Both the position numbers and the translations under genes were made by a program. From an uncultured Chlorobiaceae bacterium (GTDB lineage: Bacteria > Bacteroidota > Chlorobiia > Chlorobiales > Chlorobiaceae): 18,773 nucleotides of DNA. The DNA lies in assembly GCA_903838095.1 (NCBI GenBank), contig CAILXE010000414.1, positions 1-18,773 of the forward strand, in the 5' to 3' direction. Below, piece after piece: positions 8,959 through 18,703 of the stretch. The first letter of the stretch is position 1; every line of letters starts with the position of its first letter. The notes beneath the pieces were generated by a model, which saw only the letters and a program-made list of their open reading frames with translations, searched no databases and was not told the DNA's origin.

Positions 8959-10263
8959 CTACTTGTTTTGTGTTTCCTCTGTCGGCAATACCGCGTCAAG
9001 GGCCTCGATCAGGTCGTCGGGATGCTCAAGGCCGATGGAAAGTCTTATCAGATCGGGAGAAAGACCACTCTGCAATTGTTGTTCTTCGGTCAACTGACTG
9101 TGGGAGGTACTTGCCGGATGGAGGATCAGGCTCTTGGCATCGCCAACATTGGCGAGATGCGAGAAGAGTTTGATGTTGTCGATGATCCCGACTGCGGCAT
9201 CGTAACCACCTTTCACTCCAAAAACAACCATGCCGCCAAACCCGTTCTTCAAATCTTTTGAAGCTTTAGGGTAAGATGGGTCATTTTTCAGGCCGGGGTA
9301 ACGCACCCATGCAACTCCGGGATGCTTTGCAAGATGTTCGGCAACCTTGAGTGCATTTTCTGAATGACGTTCCATCCGGACAGGCAGAGTTTCAATGCCC
9401 TGCAGCAATATCCAAGAGTTGTCAGGCGCTATGCAGGCACCGAGATTTCTCAGTGGCACCGTACGGAAGCGAAGGGCGAATGCTATTGGCGCAAGAGGTT
9501 CCGGAAGGTCAATGGCCCAGCGCAGGCCGTGGTAATTTTTGTCGGCCTCGGTAAAGAGCGGGTGGCGTCCGCCATTCCAGTTAAAACGTCCGGCATCAGT
9601 AATAATGCCTCCGATGCCAGCCCCGTGCCCTCCAAGCCATTTGGTCAGCGAGTTGATCACAATATCTGCGCCAAGGTCAATGGTTTTAAGCAGGTAAGGA
9701 GTGGTGAAGGTTGCATCGACAATCAGCGGCAGGCCGTTGCGGTGCGCCACCTCTGCAATAGCCTTGACATCAGTATAGTCGAGGACAGGGTTGCCGATCG
9801 TTTCTATAAAAAGGGCCCTGGTTTTATCTGTAATAGCTTTTTCAAAATTGGCAGGATCTTTCGGGTCAACAAAGGTGACATTGATGCCAAATTTCGGGAG
9901 AATGGCATCAAACTGGGTGTAGGTTCCGCCGTAAAGATTGTTGGCAGAAACTATGTTATCACCTGCTTCCGCGAGAGTAATGATTGTATTGAAAATTGCG
10001 GCAGTGCCCGAAGCTACTGCAACCGAGGCGGCACCTCCTTCAAGCCTGGTAACTCTTTGCTCAAGCGTGTCGGTAGTCGGGTTCATCAGCCTGGTATAGA
10101 TATTGCCAAGCTCCTTTAGTGCAAAAAGGTTTGCAGCATGTTCCGTGCTTTTAAAGAGATAGGAGGTGGTGCGATACACTGGCACTCCACGAGAGAGTGT
10201 GGCATCAACCGGCTGTCCTGCATGAAGGGCAAGCGTCTCAAAGCGATAGTGTTCTGAACTCAT
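8959..10263 (-). CDS. metY: O-acetylhomoserine sulfhydrylase (MetY)
   Basis: The start is the ATG at 10263, preceded at good spacing by AGAGG; the longer open frame upstream overlaps the DUF4395 gene and looks like junk. The 434-residue product is a Cys/Met-metabolism PLP enzyme of MetY length. It shows FETLALHAGQ, RGVPVYRTTSY, YTRLMNPTTDTLEQR, SGTAAIFN and the PLP lysine in NSLTKWLGGHG (K208). The C-terminal HPASTSHSQL and RLSIGLEHPDDL are typical of MetY. It makes homocysteine directly from O-acetylhomoserine and sulfide. It lies 37 bases after the DUF4395 gene, in the same predicted operon behind the cysteine-codon leader. Confidence 0.94.
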   Translation of the reverse strand: MSSEHYRFETLALHAGQPVDATLSRGVPVYRTTSYLFKSTEHAANLFALKELGNIYTRLMNPTTDTLEQRVTRLEGGAASVAVASGTAAIFNTIITLAEAGDNIVSANNLYGGTYTQFDAILPKFGINVTFVDPKDPANFEKAITDKTRALFIETIGNPVLDYTDVKAIAEVAHRNGLPLIVDATFTTPYLLKTIDLGADIVINSLTKWLGGHGAGIGGIITDAGRFNWNGGRHPLFTEADKNYHGLRWAIDLPEPLAPIAFALRFRTVPLRNLGACIAPDNSWILLQGIETLPVRMERHSENALKVAEHLAKHPGVAWVRYPGLKNDPSYPKASKDLKNGFGGMVVFGVKGGYDAAVGIIDNIKLFSHLANVGDAKSLILHPASTSHSQLTEEQQLQSGLSPDLIRLSIGLEHPDDLIEALDAVLPTEETQNK

Positions 10264-10300: not shown

Positions 10301-10783
10301 TTATGCTTGTTTTTGTTTATTGACCTGCGGCTTCTGCCCCAAAAGCCGGAAGCGCTGCAGGTTGAACTGATAAAACAGGAAGCAGCCGAAGCAAAAGCCT
10401 CCAAGCGCTACGGCAGCAGCAACTGCAACCACACCCGAAAAAATCCAGCCCACAAGAGGTGCGCCTGAAATGAAAGCGATCTGGGCGGCCCCGAGCAGAA
10501 TGGCGGCAATGGAGTTATTGAAGCGCATGAGCCTTGGATCTTCTGTTTCAGCATCCCTGTTTTGTTTGGCAAAAAGGCGTGATCCAATAAAGAAAATGAG
10601 ACTGCCCTGTTTGCCGAACACTATTGCTGAAAGAATGATCAAAAAGAGTAAAAGAGTTATTATGGGCTGCTGAAAAAGAATAGCAGTAATGACGCCTGCG
10701 AGCAGTACCCAGCGATTCAGTTTGACAATTGGTAATGGCACACCTCTTTCCGGAGTTGATGAAGCTGCTGATGTTGATGGCAT
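10301..10783 (-). CDS. DUF4395 family integral membrane protein
   Basis: This 160-residue protein has about four hydrophobic segments (~25-40, 41-56, 92-112, 113-138). The last ends in GFCFGCFLFYQ, so a CxxC pair (C131, C134) sits at the membrane edge. That pattern and a predicted DNRW-like start of the first helix (KLNRWVLL) match DUF4395 proteins, which have no settled function and are often near sulfur-transfer genes. The conserved cysteines suggest thiol/sulfur or redox chemistry at the membrane (inference). It is the first structural gene after the attenuator terminator and precedes metY by 37 bases. There is no strong ribosome site before the ATG. Confidence 0.8.
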   Translation of the reverse strand: MPSTSAASSTPERGVPLPIVKLNRWVLLAGVITAILFQQPIITLLLFLIILSAIVFGKQGSLIFFIGSRLFAKQNRDAETEDPRLMRFNNSIAAILLGAAQIAFISGAPLVGWIFSGVVAVAAAVALGGFCFGCFLFYQFNLQRFRLLGQKPQVNKQKQA

Positions 10784-10831
10784 AAAAGTTATATGTTTTG
10801 TTGACGTATGTTATGAGTTGGTGATTCAGAT

Positions 10832-10871
10832 AAAAAACAAAAAAGCCGACTCTGACACTCAGAGCCGGCTT
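10832..10871 (-). terminator. Intrinsic terminator (attenuator) ahead of DUF4395-metY
   Basis: A 13-pair stem (10859-10871 with 10843-10855, loop 10856-10858) is followed on the minus strand by a T-rich tract, T6-G-T6. The one imperfect pair is A/C on the plus strand but becomes a G-U wobble in minus-strand RNA, showing which strand it serves. It lies 35 bases after the stop of the Cys-rich leader ORF and 48 bases before the DUF4395 ATG. It could alternatively just end modE transcription, but its distance from modE (200 bases) favours an attenuator. Confidence 0.85.
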
Positions 10872-10905
10872 GAAAGATGTTACGTACTTCATGAAAGCAT
10901 GTGAA

Positions 10906-11001
10906 TTACGATCTTCTTCCCGATATCCCCGTGTCAGTATCGTGTTGCCATCGGCAACAGCAACAACACATCGAGAAGTTTTTTTCACTCATTGATTTCA
11001 T
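10906..11001 (-). CDS. Cys-rich leader peptide (five consecutive cysteines)
   Basis: This 31-codon ORF from ATG 11001 (or the in-frame ATG at 10992) begins MKSMSEKNFSMCCCCCRW and stops at 10908-10906 (TAA). Codons 12-16 are TGT TGT TGC TGT TGC. A run of five Cys codons upstream of a sulfur-amino-acid operon and a terminator is the expected form of a regulatory peptide whose translation senses Cys-tRNA. Polycysteine leader ORFs acting this way are known in mycobacteria. No clear Shine-Dalgarno sequence precedes either ATG, which is the main weakness. A GTG-initiated overlapping frame (10988) reads through the terminator and is less likely. Confidence 0.6.
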   Translation of the reverse strand: MKSMSEKNFSMCCCCCRWQHDTDTGISGRRS

Positions 11002-11070
11002 GATTCAAGCTTTTTCGGTTTCTTATTAACGATTGTTAACCATATTTCCGGTAATTTCCAAAAATTTTTT

Positions 11071-11880
11071 TTAGTTAACTCCGATAATAACACTTGAGGC
11101 CTTGAATGCCACGCAAGCATGGTCACCCTCTTTGAGTGACATTTTCTCTGAACTCCCATGAGTAATAACGGCAGAGATGACATTGCCGCCCCCGATTTCA
11201 ACGTCAACTTCGGTATTGACCGGCCCTTCTATAAGCTTGCTGATTATACCTGGCAAGATATTACGGGCACTTAACTTTGCATCGAGCAGCTCCTGGGCAA
11301 TAATGATAGAGCTTGCCTTGATGATGGCATAAGCATTGACACCCTCCTTCAGGCCAAGATTATCAACCGAGCCATTGGTGATAATAGAGACGATTCGACT
11401 GCCTCCATTGAGCAGAAGAACGACTTCCGAGTTAACCGATCCCTTGATGATTGTTTCCACGGTACCCGAAAAAATGTTGCGTGCACTGATTTTCATTGCG
11501 ATTCTTTTGAGAAATTGATAAAGATGGCTGGTCTCTCCGAGACGACCCTCAAGATTTTGTAAAAACTTCCGATGCTCTTCCTGAACAATCCTGAACTGCT
11601 CAATAACTTTTTTTCCTTCATTGGTCAAGATGGTGCCTCCGCCGCCCTTTCCTCCTGTCGTGCGGTCGACAAGAGGGTTTTCGGAGAGGTTATTCATCAT
11701 GTTGACAAGATGCCAAGCCGTCTTGTAGCTTATTCCAACGGCTTTGGCTGCACTGCTGATTGAACCGAGTTCATCGATTTTATCCAGCAGTGCAATTCGA
11801 TCTCCCCCTAAAAACCTGTTATCGGCTTTCTGGAACCAGATGCTTCCTTCCAGGCCGATCGATTGTTTGCTGTCGGTCAC
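11071..11880 (-). CDS. modE: ModE-type molybdate-responsive transcriptional regulator
   Basis: This 269-residue protein has ModE architecture. An N-terminal winged HTH (~25-95: LLDKIDELGSISSAAKAVGISYKTAWHLV, with the GGKGGGG wing) is followed by two TOBE/Mop molybdate-binding repeats (~130-195 and ~202-267; note ISARNIFSGTV and LSARNILPGII). ModE binds molybdate (or tungstate) and controls molybdate uptake and molybdoenzyme genes. The start is a GTG at 11880, supported by GAGG seven bases upstream. It is 106 bases after modD on the same strand. I see no canonical ModE operator in the nearby gaps. Confidence 0.93.
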   Translation of the reverse strand: MTDSKQSIGLEGSIWFQKADNRFLGGDRIALLDKIDELGSISSAAKAVGISYKTAWHLVNMMNNLSENPLVDRTTGGKGGGGTILTNEGKKVIEQFRIVQEEHRKFLQNLEGRLGETSHLYQFLKRIAMKISARNIFSGTVETIIKGSVNSEVVLLLNGGSRIVSIITNGSVDNLGLKEGVNAYAIIKASSIIIAQELLDAKLSARNILPGIISKLIEGPVNTEVDVEIGGGNVISAVITHGSSEKMSLKEGDHACVAFKASSVIIGVN

Positions 11881-11986
11881 TCTGTCGCCTCAGTTGTTTG
11901 TTACCAAAACTTACTTTTTGAAAGATACGGGTTTTCTGATGGATTTAAATCTTTTCATGAATCTTCATCATTTTACGACGATGGTT

Positions 11987-12847
11987 TCATGCGCTTTTTA
12001 CAGGACGCATGACAACGCCGATATCAGAAGGTTTGCCGAAATAGACCGATGAAAGGACAATGATATCAACGCCACTTTCAGCATAAGCCGCGGCATTGTT
12101 TTGATTTATGCCGCCAGCCACAGAAATTTTAACATTTGGCGCTTGTTGATGGATTTGAGGAACCAGCAGGGCCAGTTCTTCAGGAGATATCTTGTCGAGT
12201 TGCACCACGTCAACACCGGCGATAGCTGTCTTCAGTGCTTCTTCCGCAGTTTCTGCCTCTACAATGATTTTATGTTCAGGAACTTTACCTTTCAACGCCT
12301 TGACAGAGTCAAGAAACCGGTCAATCCCTCCACAAAATTCGGTATGCTGACGGAAAACAAGGATTGATTCTGACAGTCCAAGCCGGTGCGGCAATGCCCC
12401 GCCTGCGATTATTGACTTGAGAGCAACTTTTTTTGTTCCGGGAAAAGATTTTCGGGTTGTCACGACCGTGATGCCGGGATTAATCGCTTTTACCCGAGAG
12501 ACAATTTCCTCTGTTCTTGTGGCAATCCCCGACGCATATTCCAGCAGGTTCAGAGCAACTTTCCACCCCGCATGAAGCGTGTCAGCTTGCCCGCTTGCAG
12601 AGAGAATGATGCTGCCAGGATCAAGCTTTAAACCGCTTTTCATGCAGTGATGAACAGAGGCTCCGCATCGTTCCAGCACTCGCGCCGCCTCTTCCGTGCA
12701 GCAGATCACGGTGCTTTCCCGGGTTGTAAAGGTTATTTCTCCCTGCAAAGTGCCGATTCCGAGCAGCGAGGTAGTCAGATCACCATAAGGGACATCTTCC
12801 TGAATAAAGTGGTCAATATCCGAATCAAGGAGTCGATAGGGTGTCAT
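11987..12847 (-). CDS. modD: ModD, nicotinate-nucleotide pyrophosphorylase-like protein of mod loci
   Basis: The 286-residue product has the quinolinate phosphoribosyltransferase (NadC) fold: EDVPYGDLTT at the N-terminus, YASGIATRT, and TRKSFPGTKK. AGGALPHRLGLSES and VFRQH follow, and EVDVVQLDK-like and AGGIN segments come later. The PHRLGLSESILVF block is typical of ModD rather than NadC. Its biochemical role is not established; it travels with molybdate genes, here modE, which fits. The ATG at 12847 gives the family N-terminus. No ribosome site stands out. No modABC transporter gene is in the window. Confidence 0.88.
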   Translation of the reverse strand: MTPYRLLDSDIDHFIQEDVPYGDLTTSLLGIGTLQGEITFTTRESTVICCTEEAARVLERCGASVHHCMKSGLKLDPGSIILSASGQADTLHAGWKVALNLLEYASGIATRTEEIVSRVKAINPGITVVTTRKSFPGTKKVALKSIIAGGALPHRLGLSESILVFRQHTEFCGGIDRFLDSVKALKGKVPEHKIIVEAETAEEALKTAIAGVDVVQLDKISPEELALLVPQIHQQAPNVKISVAGGINQNNAAAYAESGVDIIVLSSVYFGKPSDIGVVMRPVKSA

Positions 12848-13472: not shown

Positions 13473-13854
13473 ATGCATAGAGATACTCTGAATCGCATGG
13501 TGGTCCGATGTAATATTTTCTGAAAATCGTACAGGCCAGAGCTATCTTTTTGTTCCAAGGGCTCTTTCGGCAGCAGATTTTACCGTTCTTACTTACAATC
13601 AGTTCTGCGGATCTGCCCGTTTTCATCAAGAGTGTCAGCTTGACAATACATTATCTTTTTACTTCAAGGAGCGAACCCGATACCGTTTGCATAGAGGGGA
13701 AACCCTGAAAAAGGCAGCAGCATTGACCGATCGGATAAAAAAAGCGCAACAGCAATTAATCTTTAACGATAAGGAGGAGTGGCATGGCTGGCTTGAACTT
13801 CATTCAACTGAAGGCGGACATCAAATCCCGTGGACTTACCTGGGTACCCATTGA
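13473..13854 (+). pseudogene. Broken ORF ahead of the protease gene (possible frameshifted gene)
   Basis: A 16-codon start (ATG 13473, ending RCNIF then TGA) abuts an uninterrupted frame (13492-13854) with no ATG of its own. That frame reads SENRTGQSYLFVPRALS and, later, FYFKERTRYRLHRGETLKK. Joining the two needs one frameshift near 13519, in a TTTT/AAAA context. The amino-acid make-up is protein-like and one part vaguely resembles a LysM repeat (YRLHRGETLKKAA), but I do not recognise the family. Its 3' end overlaps the first 71 bases of the protease gene, which is unusual for a live gene. Confidence 0.3.
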
Positions 13855-15799
13855 GTTGCCCGCTGATTCAAAACCGAGGGGGCTGGGGTGGAATCCTGCT
13901 CCAGCGGAGGTAACCCGTGCAGCACTGGAGACATCACAACGGTTGATGGTGACGCGGATGTCGCACCTGTTTCAGCAACCCATGACCCTTGGGAGTGCTC
14001 CAAAGGCCCTCGGTGGTCCTGCGGCAGCTCCTCCTTATCCGAGCACCTTCGATTGGCGAGCACGCGGTGTCATTGGCGGGGTGACCGACCAGGGCTATTG
14101 CGGCTCATGCGTCTCCCATGCCACAACCGGAGTTGTTGGCTCAATGGTCGGCGTTGAGCATGGTGGAGCAAGTGTCCATCTCTCGGAAGCGGATCAGCAC
14201 TTCTGCTCTTCACACGGTCCGAATTGTCACGGATGGAACAATGGCGACGCGCTGAACCAGATCAAGTCGCGTGGCGTAGTCAGTGACGCCGATTTTCCCT
14301 ATATGACCGCCTTTGATTCTCCCCCTGTCGGCGATCCGGCTGATCACCCTGATCATCTCTGGATTGCACACTGCCGTGCGGTTGCTGAACGGAACCGCAA
14401 GATCTACCAGATTACCGAAATTTCTGCCTGGACCGGCAATGATCGCAAAACCTATATTGCCAATGTCGGTCCGCTTGCCTGTGGTTACAGAGTCTATGAG
14501 GATTTCCGGCATTATGGCGGAGGAGTCTATCGTCATGTCTCCGGCGATTTCCTTGGTGGCCATGCTGTGATGGTAGTCGGATACTCGGACGTTGAAAATT
14601 GCTGGATTTGCCGCAACAGTTGGGGAGCCGGTTTTGGCGGCGCAGCCCGTGCGGATGGAACCGGTGCCGGCTACTTCAAGATCGGCTATGGTGAGTGTAA
14701 TATTGATGGCGAAGCCTTTTACGGGGCACAGGGTGTCATTGCTCCGGCTAACAGAAACTGGGGAGGCTGGTGGCCGGTTGCCGGTGGTGCGGCTGCTTCG
14801 GACTCGTCAGTTTTTGGTGTGTCACGCAGTCCCAACAAACTCGATATCTTCACCTCCGGCACCGATCATGGCACCTACACGGCGGCATGGCAACCGGGCG
14901 ATACGGCTTGGCGAGGCTGGTGGCGTGTGCAGGGCGGCGTTACAGCGCCGGGGACTTCAATTACGGCAGTTTCGCGCAATACCGACCATCTCGATATTTT
15001 CTGTGTCGGTACCGACCATCGCGTCTACACGGCGGCATGGCAGCATGGTGACACCTCATGGCGTGGCTGGTGGCCGGTTGCCGGTGGCGTAGCTGCTCCC
15101 GGAACATCGGTCTTTGGCGTCTCACGCAGTGCTGACCATCTCGACATTTTCTGCGTGGGCACCGATCATGGCACCTATACGGCGGCCTGGCAACCGGGCG
15201 ACACGGCCTGGCGCGGCTGGTGGCGTGTGCAGGGCGGCGTTACTGCGCCGAACACATCCATTACGGCAGTTTCACGTAATACCGACAAGCTCGATATTTT
15301 CTGCGTGGGTACCGACCACCGCATCTACACGGCGGCCTGGCAGGCGGGTGATACATCATGGCGCGGCTGGTGGCCGGTTGCCGGTGGCGTTGCGGCCCCT
15401 GGAACATCGGTCTTTGGCGTCTCACGCGCTCCAGACAAGCTCGATATTTTCGCAGTCGGTACGGACATGCATGTCTATACTGCAGCATGGAAGGCGGGTG
15501 ATACATCATGGCGTGGCTGGTGGCCGGTTGGCCATTTCAAGGTGGCTCCTGGAACCTCAATCCATGCTGTTTCACGCGGCCCCAACAAGCTCGATATTTT
15601 TGCTGTTGGCCAGGATGGCGGCATCTATTCAGCGGCATGGCAGGCGGGCGACACCGCATGGCGGGGCTGGTGGCGTATTCTTGGTGGCGCAGCCGCACCG
15701 AATACGATGGTGACGGCGGTTGTGCGGAGCGCTGACCATCTTGATATTTTTGCGGTTGGCACCGATCATCATATTTACACGGCTGCCTGGCAACCGTAG
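13784..15799 (+). CDS. Papain-like (C1A) cysteine protease fused to a seven-repeat beta-propeller (lectin-like)
   Basis: The 671-residue protein has three parts. Residues 1-~88 are probably a propeptide, with no signal peptide seen. Residues ~89-320 are a C1A peptidase: DQGYCGSCVSHA with oxyanion Q103 and nucleophile C109, GGHAVMVVGY with H260, and CRNSWGAGFGG with N278. The Trp that usually follows the catalytic Cys is Val. From 326 come seven tandem 50-residue units, each with WRGWW, PGTS or similar, VSR, LDIF, VGTD and YTAAWQ. This fits a seven-bladed propeller like PLL-type bacterial lectins, so sugar binding is plausible (inference). AAGGAGGAG just before the ATG is the strongest ribosome site in the window. 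A chagasin-like inhibitor gene follows after 40 bases. Confidence 0.9.
   Translation: MAGLNFIQLKADIKSRGLTWVPIELPADSKPRGLGWNPAPAEVTRAALETSQRLMVTRMSHLFQQPMTLGSAPKALGGPAAAPPYPSTFDWRARGVIGGVTDQGYCGSCVSHATTGVVGSMVGVEHGGASVHLSEADQHFCSSHGPNCHGWNNGDALNQIKSRGVVSDADFPYMTAFDSPPVGDPADHPDHLWIAHCRAVAERNRKIYQITEISAWTGNDRKTYIANVGPLACGYRVYEDFRHYGGGVYRHVSGDFLGGHAVMVVGYSDVENCWICRNSWGAGFGGAARADGTGAGYFKIGYGECNIDGEAFYGAQGVIAPANRNWGGWWPVAGGAAASDSSVFGVSRSPNKLDIFTSGTDHGTYTAAWQPGDTAWRGWWRVQGGVTAPGTSITAVSRNTDHLDIFCVGTDHRVYTAAWQHGDTSWRGWWPVAGGVAAPGTSVFGVSRSADHLDIFCVGTDHGTYTAAWQPGDTAWRGWWRVQGGVTAPNTSITAVSRNTDKLDIFCVGTDHRIYTAAWQAGDTSWRGWWPVAGGVAAPGTSVFGVSRAPDKLDIFAVGTDMHVYTAAWKAGDTSWRGWWPVGHFKVAPGTSIHAVSRGPNKLDIFAVGQDGGIYSAAWQAGDTAWRGWWRILGGAAAPNTMVTAVVRSADHLDIFAVGTDHHIYTAAWQP
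14759..15796 (+). repeat. Seven tandem 150-bp coding repeats with a 300-bp higher-order period
   Basis: Units begin at residues 326, 376, 426, 476, 526, 576 and 626, exactly 50 residues (150 bp) apart with no indels. Two versions alternate: PVAGG...SVFGVSR in units 1, 3 and 5, and RVQGG...SITAVSR in units 2 and 4. Stretches 300 bp apart (e.g. 14881 onward versus 15181 onward, and 15061 onward versus 15361 onward) are almost identical in DNA. Units 6 and 7 are the most diverged. This indicates recent duplication or gene conversion of a two-blade unit. Confidence 0.93.
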
Positions 15800-17225: not shown

Positions 17226-18251
17226 ATGGCAAAAGATTTGACAGTCTCTGCGGTAGACCGGCAGAACATCCTCAACAACCCCTTCGCTGTCGCCGAAATC
17301 CAGAAAAGCATCGGCATGAAGGGAATCGAGTTCAATGGGAGGATAGTTGTCCTCAAGGAGCAAGTTGCTTTGTTTTTTGAGGTTAGTCCGAGAACTATTG
17401 ATAATTATCTTTCGAACAACGAGAATGAACTTCGTCAAAACGGTTACGAGGTTTTGCGTGGTAAAGTATTAAAAGAATTTAAATTAGCTCTTTCTGATGG
17501 GTATGTTCACGAAACAGATTTCGTGAACATCATGAAAACCCCGCAATTAGGTGTTTTCGACTTCCGGGCCTTCCTCAATCTGGCCATGCTCATCACTGAA
17601 AGTGAACGCGCAAGATTGTTGCGCCAGGCTATGCTTGATATTGTGATTGATACCATCAACAGCCGGACGGGAGGAGGAACAAAATACGTCAACCAGCGGG
17701 ATGAAGATTTTGTCGTATCCTATTTCGTAGAAGAAAATTATCGCAAACAGTTCACCGATGCGCTGCGAGACTGTGTTGATATGGGTAACTTCAAATACCC
17801 CATGTACACCGACAAAATTTATGTGAGCATTTTCCGGGAGAAAGCGAAAGAGTACAGAAAAATACTGCGACTTCAAGAACAAGAGGAGGTACGAAATACC
17901 TTTTACAGTGAAATACTTGATCTGATAGCTTCTTACGAATGCGGCTTCGCCGCCTCGCTTCAGCAGCAGTACAGTGAGTACGGTCGTAAGCTTACCTCAT
18001 TCGAGGTTGATGCACTCTTTCTACAGTTCGAAGCGCAACCACACTGGAAACCCTTGATCGAAAAATTTCGAATGAAAATGGCCAGCCGTGATCTTGCTTT
18101 TCGTGATGCCCTGCATGAGCGGTTGAAAGAGTATGTTACCCCGTTGCAAGCCGAAGAGTTTGAACGGTTCATAGGTGAAAAGAGCGCTGAACTGAATAAG
18201 CGTATCGAAGAAGCCAAGGATGTCATGAAACGCCTCAAGGAGCGTGAATAA
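17226..18251 (+). CDS. Large HTH protein, probable antitoxin/regulator partner of Doc
   Basis: The 341-residue protein has a putative helix-turn-helix near 44-65 (VVLKEQVALFFEVSPRTIDNYL). A central region follows (DFRAFLNLAMLITESERARLLRQA), with NSRTGGGTKYVNQRDE, and then a long charged helical C-terminus ending in EEAKDVMKRLKERE. It resembles the DNA-binding proteins, loosely RhuM-like, often encoded directly before Fic/Doc toxins and inside type III restriction-modification loci. Its stop overlaps the Doc start by one base (TAATG), so the two are coupled; an antitoxin or autorepressor role is inferred from that. The exact family is not certain. Confidence 0.65.
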   Translation: MAKDLTVSAVDRQNILNNPFAVAEIQKSIGMKGIEFNGRIVVLKEQVALFFEVSPRTIDNYLSNNENELRQNGYEVLRGKVLKEFKLALSDGYVHETDFVNIMKTPQLGVFDFRAFLNLAMLITESERARLLRQAMLDIVIDTINSRTGGGTKYVNQRDEDFVVSYFVEENYRKQFTDALRDCVDMGNFKYPMYTDKIYVSIFREKAKEYRKILRLQEQEEVRNTFYSEILDLIASYECGFAASLQQQYSEYGRKLTSFEVDALFLQFEAQPHWKPLIEKFRMKMASRDLAFRDALHERLKEYVTPLQAEEFERFIGEKSAELNKRIEEAKDVMKRLKERE

Positions 18252-18703
18252 TGCCACTGATTTATATTACCATAGATCAGGTAGCAGCAATTCATGCTAA
18301 TACAATAGATATCTCGGGTGGAGGCTCTCACGGATGGTTCGATGAGCATGCAAAGGGAAGACTTGAAAGTGTTCTCGAACATATTCAAAATGATGATTAC
18401 TATCCGACGTTTCTTGATAAAATCACACACCTATTTTATTGTTCAGATAACTTCCATTGTTTCAATGATGGCAACAAACGAATTGCTATTACGCTCTCTG
18501 TGCAATTCCTGTTATTCAATGGCTACATGTACTGTGTCTCTGATTTCATGCGGGAGATGGAAAACATCAGTTATCATCTGGCCGCAGGTAGAATAGATAA
18601 AGAGTTTCTCCGCGACCTTATTGAGGCTGTTATCAATGAGAGCTATGATGACAACGAGGAGCTGAAACTAAGGCTCTTGAATGCCATACAGGAAGAGTTA
18701 TGA
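18251..18703 (+). CDS. Doc/Fic-family toxin (death-on-curing type)
   Basis: The 150-residue protein has the Fic/Doc core motif HCFNDGNKR (H69 to R77), matching HxFx(D/N)xNKR of Doc proteins. It also has the N-terminal pattern GGGSHGWFDEHAKGRLESVL, typical of this group. Fic/Doc enzymes transfer AMP or phosphate to target proteins; P1 Doc phosphorylates EF-Tu and stops translation. The motif has Gly-Asn-Lys, so Doc-like kinase activity is likelier than AMPylation, but this is not settled. It overlaps the upstream HTH gene by one base and the following ORF by four (ATGA). It sits where a res gene should follow mod. Confidence 0.85.
   Translation: MPLIYITIDQVAAIHANTIDISGGGSHGWFDEHAKGRLESVLEHIQNDDYYPTFLDKITHLFYCSDNFHCFNDGNKRIAITLSVQFLLFNGYMYCVSDFMREMENISYHLAAGRIDKEFLRDLIEAVINESYDDNEELKLRLLNAIQEEL

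Follow-up and report, generated by a model that had tools for sequence, protein, structure and literature searches.

A candidate cysteine-responsive attenuator with a poly-cysteine leader upstream of sulfur-related operons in Chlorobium

Here, we analyse a stretch of 18,773 nucleotides (the window) from contig CAILXE010000414.1 of an uncultured Chlorobiaceae bacterium, in which a short leader ORF and an intrinsic terminator sit between modE (11880-11071) and a DUF4395 gene (10783-10301, PF14340) on the minus strand. The DUF4395 gene is the first gene behind the leader and is followed on the same strand by a metY-type sulfhydrylase ORF (10404-8959, TIGR01326 above cut-off), whose true start is probably near 10257 because the family match begins at residue 54-56. 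Profile matches then identify an HPr-like protein, a LuxR-type response regulator, cysK and cysE (8999-5977; cysE scored below the cut-off of TIGR01172 and above that of NF041874), a Family 2 encapsulin shell with a SufS-type cysteine desulfurase (5932-2486; NF041163 and TIGR01979 above cut-off, NF041166 with 796.8 bits against a cut-off of 800), and a cystathionine gamma-synthase/lyase-type enzyme with thiG (2339-149; PF01053, PF05690). The HPr-like protein (8999-8661), located between metY and the response regulator, was matched in some relatives only. The desulfurase is the probable cargo of the encapsulin, whose shell carries a cyclic-nucleotide domain and which, together with the cysteine desulfurase, lies inside a cysteine cluster; encapsulin and desulfurase were not found at this place in loci L044, L046, L047, L056, and L063, which keep cysK-cysE-metB. 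The run had been predicted to extend to thiH, but the last gene of the window is thiG (922-149, PF05690) and no scanned ORF matched thiH. One long transcript downstream of the leader is possible, as the minus strand between 10843 and 1 holds just two further terminator-like sites (3891-3879 and 768-750), each of them weak and intragenic. The other end of the window encodes a papain-family protease (13784-15799, PF00112) and a Fic/DOC protein (18251-18703, PF02661).

The leader ORF (11001-10906, minus strand) comprises 31 codons, MKSMSEKNFSMCCCCCRWQHDTDTGISGRRS, from the ATG at 11001 to the TAA at 10908-10906; inspection of the window sequence by eye revealed no clear Shine-Dalgarno motif ahead of this ATG. 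Direct reading verified the predicted five tandem Cys codons, TGT TGT TGC TGT TGC, at 10968-10954, which we regard as the regulatory codons, and also the predicted 7-bp hairpin TGTTGCC-GAT-GGCAACA (10959-10943, minus strand), which spans the last two of them and is likewise obtained by folding. Since 11 neighbouring window genes use Cys at 20 of their 3759 codons, the chance of five tandem Cys codons in an ORF of 31 codons is about 1e-10. Raw counts of TGY repeats were discarded as uninformative: strings of four TGY in any frame occur 41 times in the genome of the window, and two genomes gave 41 and 50. Downstream on the same strand, a terminator scan located the intrinsic terminator, a stem-loop AAGCCGGCTCTGA-GTG-TCAGAGTCGGCTT of 13 pairs (10871-10843) with a T-rich tail to about 10832, in agreement with the strong terminator expected downstream of CTGACAC; it is the sole terminator-like site in 10600-11300, where 0.6 are expected in shuffles. 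The entire leader (10836-11001) folds with a z-score of -4.07, and none of 200 shuffles folded equally well.

The heptamer CTGACAC (10937-10931), proposed as the antiterminator, is indeed the exact complement of GTGTCAG (10858-10852), that is, of the terminator loop and 3' arm. While this pairing stands, the element is larger than had been proposed: the putative antiterminator segment CTGACACGGGGATATCGG (10937-10920, minus strand) reaches both arms, as 10937-10931, 10928-10926, and 10923-10920 jointly pair with the 3' and 5' arms of the terminator (duplex of -18.5 kcal/mol, p 0.03 versus shuffles). Single folds further suggested a tentative anti-antiterminator helix P1, formed by a strand ahead of the Cys codons (10978-10970, minus strand) and a partner at 10924-10916. 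We rejected P1 as a feature of the family; it reached p<=0.05 against shuffles in merely 8 of 49 leaders, and p was 0.10 in the window.

The leader combines a short ORF in which codons for the controlled amino acid stand in tandem, an intrinsic terminator between this ORF and the structural genes, and, just past the regulatory codons, a segment that by pairing and position appears able to exclude the terminator. From this anatomy, its conservation, its specificity for Cys, and the gene context, all read from sequence, we propose with a probability of roughly four in five that the leader is a cysteine-responsive, ribosome-mediated transcription attenuator. Briefly, RNA polymerase, starting from a presumed promoter ahead of the leader, would transcribe the leader with a ribosome trailing on the leader ORF, which is predicted to be translated. 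If Cys-tRNA is plentiful, the ribosome would reach the stop codon at 10908 and cover the 3' half of the antiterminator, so that the terminator (10871-10843) could fold and end transcription. If Cys-tRNA is scarce, the ribosome would stall on the Cys codons and leave 10937-10920 free just ahead of it; this segment would then capture first the 5' arm of the terminator and then part of its 3' arm, and the polymerase would read through into DUF4395-metY-cysK-cysE. The predicted direction of the response is thus induction by cysteine shortage, on a transcript whose length is likewise predicted.

A DUF4395 match was present in 77 of the 98 genomes of the order. The original prediction had proposed to align the leader across relatives and to look for conserved tandem Cys codons and covarying stems. 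We took 71 DUF4395 loci from a second collection and sought an ORF within 700 nt upstream; 44 of these loci have one with at least three tandem Cys codons, which are kept in Chlorobium as had been expected. The other 27 loci include 11 from outside Chlorobi or from an unnamed phylum, six of Chlorobaculum type (L079, L080, L081, L083, L092, L097), five Chlorobiaceae loci with another terminator plus L052, and four with fewer or spaced Cys codons (L064, L071, L073, L084). The different terminator (GCCGGATCA...), found upstream of DUF4395 at L050, L062, L072, L082, and L089 with no ORF of three tandem Cys codons, possibly represents a changed signal. Two of these DUF4395 copies, L062 and L082, lie on one contig (JAAXWS010000022). 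Together with the window, 48 loci made up a set of 49 leaders; outside it remained 23 loci, namely 15 without the terminator pattern, the five with the other terminator type, L052 (with the terminator but no visible Cys ORF), and the Chloroflexota loci L093 and L096. An alignment of 46 rows (A1; without L071, L084, and L088) was used for covariation, and 35 of its rows for a covariance model (R1).

The longest Cys run ranges from 1 to 7 codons in the 49 aligned leaders and is at least four in 35 of them, and TGC and TGT interchange at aligned Cys positions. The gene order behind the leader is largely kept in relatives, with encapsulin-SufS present or absent. The nearest relative found was Chlorobium sp. 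L227-S-6D, with a 97% identical DUF4395 protein. Of the 65 genomes in the window's genus, 50 had an R1 match with an E-value no higher than 3e-13; C. ferrooxidans belongs to this genus (L041 and G024 denote one and the same site). The sister genus, to which Chlorobaculum sp. 24CR belongs, gave weaker full-length matches (E 1e-5 to 5e-8) directly upstream of DUF4395 in four of 21 genomes (G006, G007, G011, G019). These comparisons show a poly-Cys leader and terminator to be conserved ahead of the sulfur cluster in Chlorobium.

In the 46 aligned leaders, 94.1% of the terminator cells are paired and five pairs have changes on both sides; none of 500 shuffles matched the paired percentage, the number of both-side pairs, or the covariation score, and 188 of 500 matched the number of pair types. 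RNAalifold returned the terminator as the only structure of the leader alignment. In the typical leader, the Cys run is followed by a block like TTCTGACAnnnGGATATCGGG, which encodes SDTGISG or SDKRISG and has the potential to pair with both terminator arms as one extended helix. In this antiterminator, 89.8% of 735 cells in the 46 leaders form standard pairs, as compared to 25-49% if slid by 1-3 columns. Its variation is largely one-sided, with columns 80/172 being G-C in one leader and A-U in most. Shuffles reached the observed covariation score in 9 and the number of both-side cells in 4 of 500 cases, and the percentage paired, the number of both-side-change pairs, and the number of pair types in 51, 268, and 125 of 500, respectively. 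The covariation of the antiterminator is therefore modest, several measures being matched by many shuffles; as its bases also build the terminator, the room for variation is limited. The antiterminator duplex beat a shuffled leader segment at p<=0.05 in 43 of the 49 leaders, which are related sequences and thus not independent. Of the stems that were anticipated to covary, the terminator did, with its five both-side pairs, and the antiterminator did modestly, whereas the hairpin over the Cys codons was found again in some relatives and was absent from the single folds of most.

The position of the ribosome requires one revision of the original prediction, in which a ribosome at the stop codon covers CTGACAC. 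Assuming that a ribosome covers 16 nt on the 5' side and 13 nt on the 3' side of the first base of the A-site codon, the usual footprint at the stop (about 10924-10895) misses CTGACAC and covers the part that pairs with the 5' arm. The distance from the last Cys codon to the stop has a median of 45 nt in DUF4395-class leaders (10-90% range 42-48). We masked the nucleotides under a ribosome stalled on the last Cys codon and assessed the pairing of the nascent 5' arm of the terminator. The fraction of its bases paired with the segment 8-28 nt past the mask, a range picked after an unrestricted 5'-arm test had been run, was 0.55 versus 0.17 in shuffles for 25 non-redundant DUF4395-class leaders (all 25 above the shuffle median, 10 at p<=0.05) and 0.56 versus 0.14 for 47 non-redundant leaders of other operons (44 above the median, 27 at p<=0.05). 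The unrestricted test was weak, reaching p<=0.05 in 11 of 67 other leaders and 2 of 49 of the DUF4395 class (mean z 0.23 in the latter), and a plain duplex test on the other-operon leaders was not significant (5/67, mean z -0.39). When the ribosome was modelled at either position, 5'-arm capture was higher by more than 0.1 for the Cys codons than for the stop in 38 of 67 other leaders (the reverse in 7) and in 17 of 48 DUF4395-class leaders (the reverse in 8). Mean capture in the DUF4395 class was 0.57 on Cys, 0.52 at the stop, and 0.51 with no ribosome, and the window gave 0.56, 0.45, and 0.53, respectively, in a folding model that describes equilibrium and cannot settle a kinetic switch. The modelled ribosome effect is thus clear for the other operons; in the DUF4395 class it has the fitting direction and a small size, with the bare RNA near the stalled state.

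A motif search upstream of the leaders further revealed a palindrome, TTAACAATCGTTAA (11039-11026, minus strand), a possible operator that ends 24 nt ahead of the leader ATG. With at most one mismatch, TTAACNATNGTTAA occurs within 120 nt upstream of 47 of the 48 DUF4395-class leaders for which enough upstream sequence was available and in none of 48 controls, consisting of one base-shuffled copy per leader. It is also found upstream of DUF4395 in all six Chlorobaculum-type loci without a leader (L079, L080, L081, L083, L092, L097) and ahead of a sulfate ABC transporter leader in the genome of the window. A transcription factor that acts at initiation via this palindrome may form a second layer of control. 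The motif was dismissed as a regulon-wide operator, being present with at most one mismatch in just 2 of 76 other leaders (0 of 76 shuffled); L134 has TTAACNATNGTTAA upstream of its leader.

The surroundings of the leader bear on a more trivial explanation, in which the terminator does no more than end transcription of modE, with the Cys ORF being a product of chance or decay. This would suit the window itself, where modE lies on the same strand and ends at 11071, 200 nt ahead of the terminator. Elsewhere, however, the leader is kept where modE was not found in the fetched flank (L038, L044), where it is on the other strand (L048, L056), or where it is 6 kb away (L060); the palindrome precedes 47 of 48 leaders, and the leader-terminator pair also precedes other operons. 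We consider this explanation extremely improbable.

Beyond DUF4395, model R1 returned full-length secondary matches, of which 20 were fetched. In 19 of them a short ORF starting at ATG places two or more consecutive Cys codons at the match, and the remaining one (L137) offers nothing beyond CYC. A second model (R2), built from 18 of these secondary leaders and five DUF4395-class leaders and applied at E<=1e-4, gave 147 matches in 50 of 98 genomes, every one in the window's genus. At least three copies were found in 21 of its 65 genomes, with a maximum of nine per genome, DUF4395 copies included. Among the 79 R2 matches not upstream of DUF4395 whose DNA was fetched, 72 have at least two and 51 at least three consecutive Cys codons; these counts lean towards Cys because the ORF with the longest Cys run (starting at ATG, GTG, or TTG; 67 ATG and five TTG among the 72) was picked. 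As R2 itself contains Cys codons and its count used the best ORF, a third model (R3) was built without the Cys codons and applied at E<=0.001 to 10 genomes outside its training set, chosen for several R2 matches, with ATG-initiated ORFs entering the match being counted. Of its 51 matches, 30 have at least three tandem Cys codons (next Leu, 6) and 39 at least two (next Ile, 12), which is a fairer test of Cys specificity than the R2 count.

Retention of the Cys codons under this Cys-blind model also speaks against a riboswitch that binds a metabolite such as SAM, homocysteine, or O-acetylserine, with an incidental ORF. The conserved leader sequence and terminator and the sulfur context could be accommodated by such a riboswitch. 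Yet RNAalifold returned the terminator alone, and no Rfam family reached its gathering score in the window, with two weak matches in the leader to unrelated families (E 0.11 and 0.51). A riboswitch is accordingly very unlikely in our judgement.

The additional copies of the presumed attenuator differ in detail from the DUF4395 class. In many other-operon leaders the encoded tail differs (DIKVFAPM and similar), and the usual terminator arm is GCCGATTC rather than GCCGGTTC. Their Cys codons are mostly TGT (206 TGT, 43 TGC), and the 11 window genes favour TGC (18 versus 2). At L246 (G038:C47:11774-11908 and 11971-12104, minus strand), two tandem Cys attenuators are arranged 62 nt apart ahead of one gene. 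The scope of regulation originally proposed, DUF4395-metY and perhaps the run to thiH, is too narrow and, with regard to thiH, was not borne out; the same device stands ahead of other operons.

We grouped the first genes behind these copies and scanned representatives of the groups. The targets include porin O/P family proteins and another group (L136, L142) whose members begin like signal peptides and lack a Pfam match; we infer these to be porins as well. Further targets are BadF/BadG ATPases, one of them followed by HGD-D proteins that are related to the double-cubane reductase model but score below its cut-off; radical-SAM proteins, some merely weak matches; NifH-like proteins, neighboured by a nitrogenase component-1-like protein; ABC ATPases that have SsuA-family binding proteins in their vicinity; PNPOx-like proteins; a short-chain dehydrogenase; an arylsulfotransferase-family protein; and HlyD-type proteins, with an AcrB-family protein behind that of L137. 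In the genome of the window, one copy (contig C367) precedes a sulfate ABC transporter (its binding protein and ATPase exceed the cut-offs of TIGR00971 and TIGR00968, respectively, and a permease-type protein lies between them) and another (contig C475) precedes a porin O/P protein, an SsuA-family protein scoring above the TIGR01728 cut-off, and a protein that matches radical-SAM weakly. No cysS was found among first genes, that of the window being DUF4395 and the scanned representatives of the other target groups having none. Seven genomes carry several copies on a single contig, spread over 16-41 kb (G059:C9 with L210-L211, G084:C4, G069:C40, G057:C29, G075:C189, G066:C18, and G072:C72). In G059 the Cys attenuators are accompanied by genes of the nitrogenase-like, HGD-D, radical-SAM, SsuA-like, and ABC kinds; this stretch resembles an island for sulfur scavenging, and such operons are candidate organosulfur salvage systems, with uptake deduced from the transporters and the attenuator tag.

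Many targets belong to sulfur uptake or biosynthesis, which argues against the alternative that a Cys-rich peptide senses a metal, the redox state, or a thiol-reactive compound rather than the charging of Cys-tRNA. Cys-containing copper-responsive leaders exist in proteobacteria, some leaders here have spaced Cys residues (CGRCSCC in L073, CMCCGIKC in L064), and one class of targets pairs an HlyD-type protein with a downstream AcrB-type pump. Against these stand the Cys run length, which ranges from 1 to 7, and the steady distance of the antiterminator from the Cys codons. Sensing by the peptide itself is thus unlikely, and we continue to favour Cys-tRNA as the signal.

It is tempting to propose, and we hold it to be somewhat more likely than not, that the poly-Cys device has spread to up to nine sites per genome in about one in three of the searched Chlorobium genomes (at least three matches in 21 of 65) as a master switch for sulfur starvation, with each copy tagging a sulfur-supplying operon. 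The nitrogenase-like, HGD-D/double-cubane-like, radical-SAM, and porin operons would then serve organosulfur salvage, a reading that is based on their being tagged by the attenuator. As the same device stands before other sulfur-related operons of Chlorobium, it would sense the supply of cysteine for an entire regulon.

Attenuators of the trp/his type in enterobacteria have a leader peptide with codons for the regulated amino acid and mutually exclusive terminator and antiterminator structures. The Chlorobium leader resembles them in its regulatory-codon leader peptide and in its predicted mutual exclusion of terminator and antiterminator. In contrast to these systems, its putative antiterminator lies inside the leader ORF just past the regulatory codons, one signal would serve many operons, and P1 as the counterpart of a 1:2 hairpin beats shuffles in 8 of 49 leaders. 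Polycysteine leader ORFs of mycobacteria were reportedly described by Canestrari et al. in 2020, as leaderless according to the title, and a 2026 study is said to deal with attenuation in Mycobacterium tuberculosis. PMC9094748 cites Cys-rich short ORFs ahead of genes in mycobacteria that are predicted to be cysteine-responsive, in line with the original statement that such leaders are known in mycobacteria; that statement knew of none described for green sulfur bacteria, and searches of the open-licence literature yielded none either. Both systems have Cys-rich short ORFs before genes, several per genome, and a predicted cysteine response, whereas the Chlorobium leaders have an intrinsic terminator and a putative antiterminator inside the ORF. 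In Rhodobacterales, the uORFC-8-2 motif is, according to PMC8632094, a short Cys ORF exclusively upstream of cysS for which ribosome-mediated attenuation was proposed. It shares with the Chlorobium leaders the short ORF with tandem Cys codons and the terminator stem with a U-run; it has two Cys codons, usually at positions 14-15, where Chlorobium has longer runs, and it precedes cysS exclusively, where the Chlorobium leaders precede sulfur operons and the first gene of the window is not cysS. The T-box upstream of hisS in Chlorobia, mentioned in PMC2965389, is a different device.

We found no cysteine leader in Chlorobi in the open-licence literature, where the described kinds encountered are those of mycobacteria and of Rhodobacterales cysS. 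As far as searched, the kind of mechanism is known, and its lineage, its multi-operon use, and its in-ORF antiterminator are new. To our knowledge, no sensor of sulfur need has been described in photoferrotrophic Chlorobi. Assimilatory sulfate reduction under sulfate limitation in these organisms (PMC5498476) fits a sensor of sulfur shortage. The leader described here is a candidate sensor of sulfur need in Chlorobium, and it marks several operons without assigned function, including those for nitrogenase-like reductases, as probable sulfur-scavenging systems.
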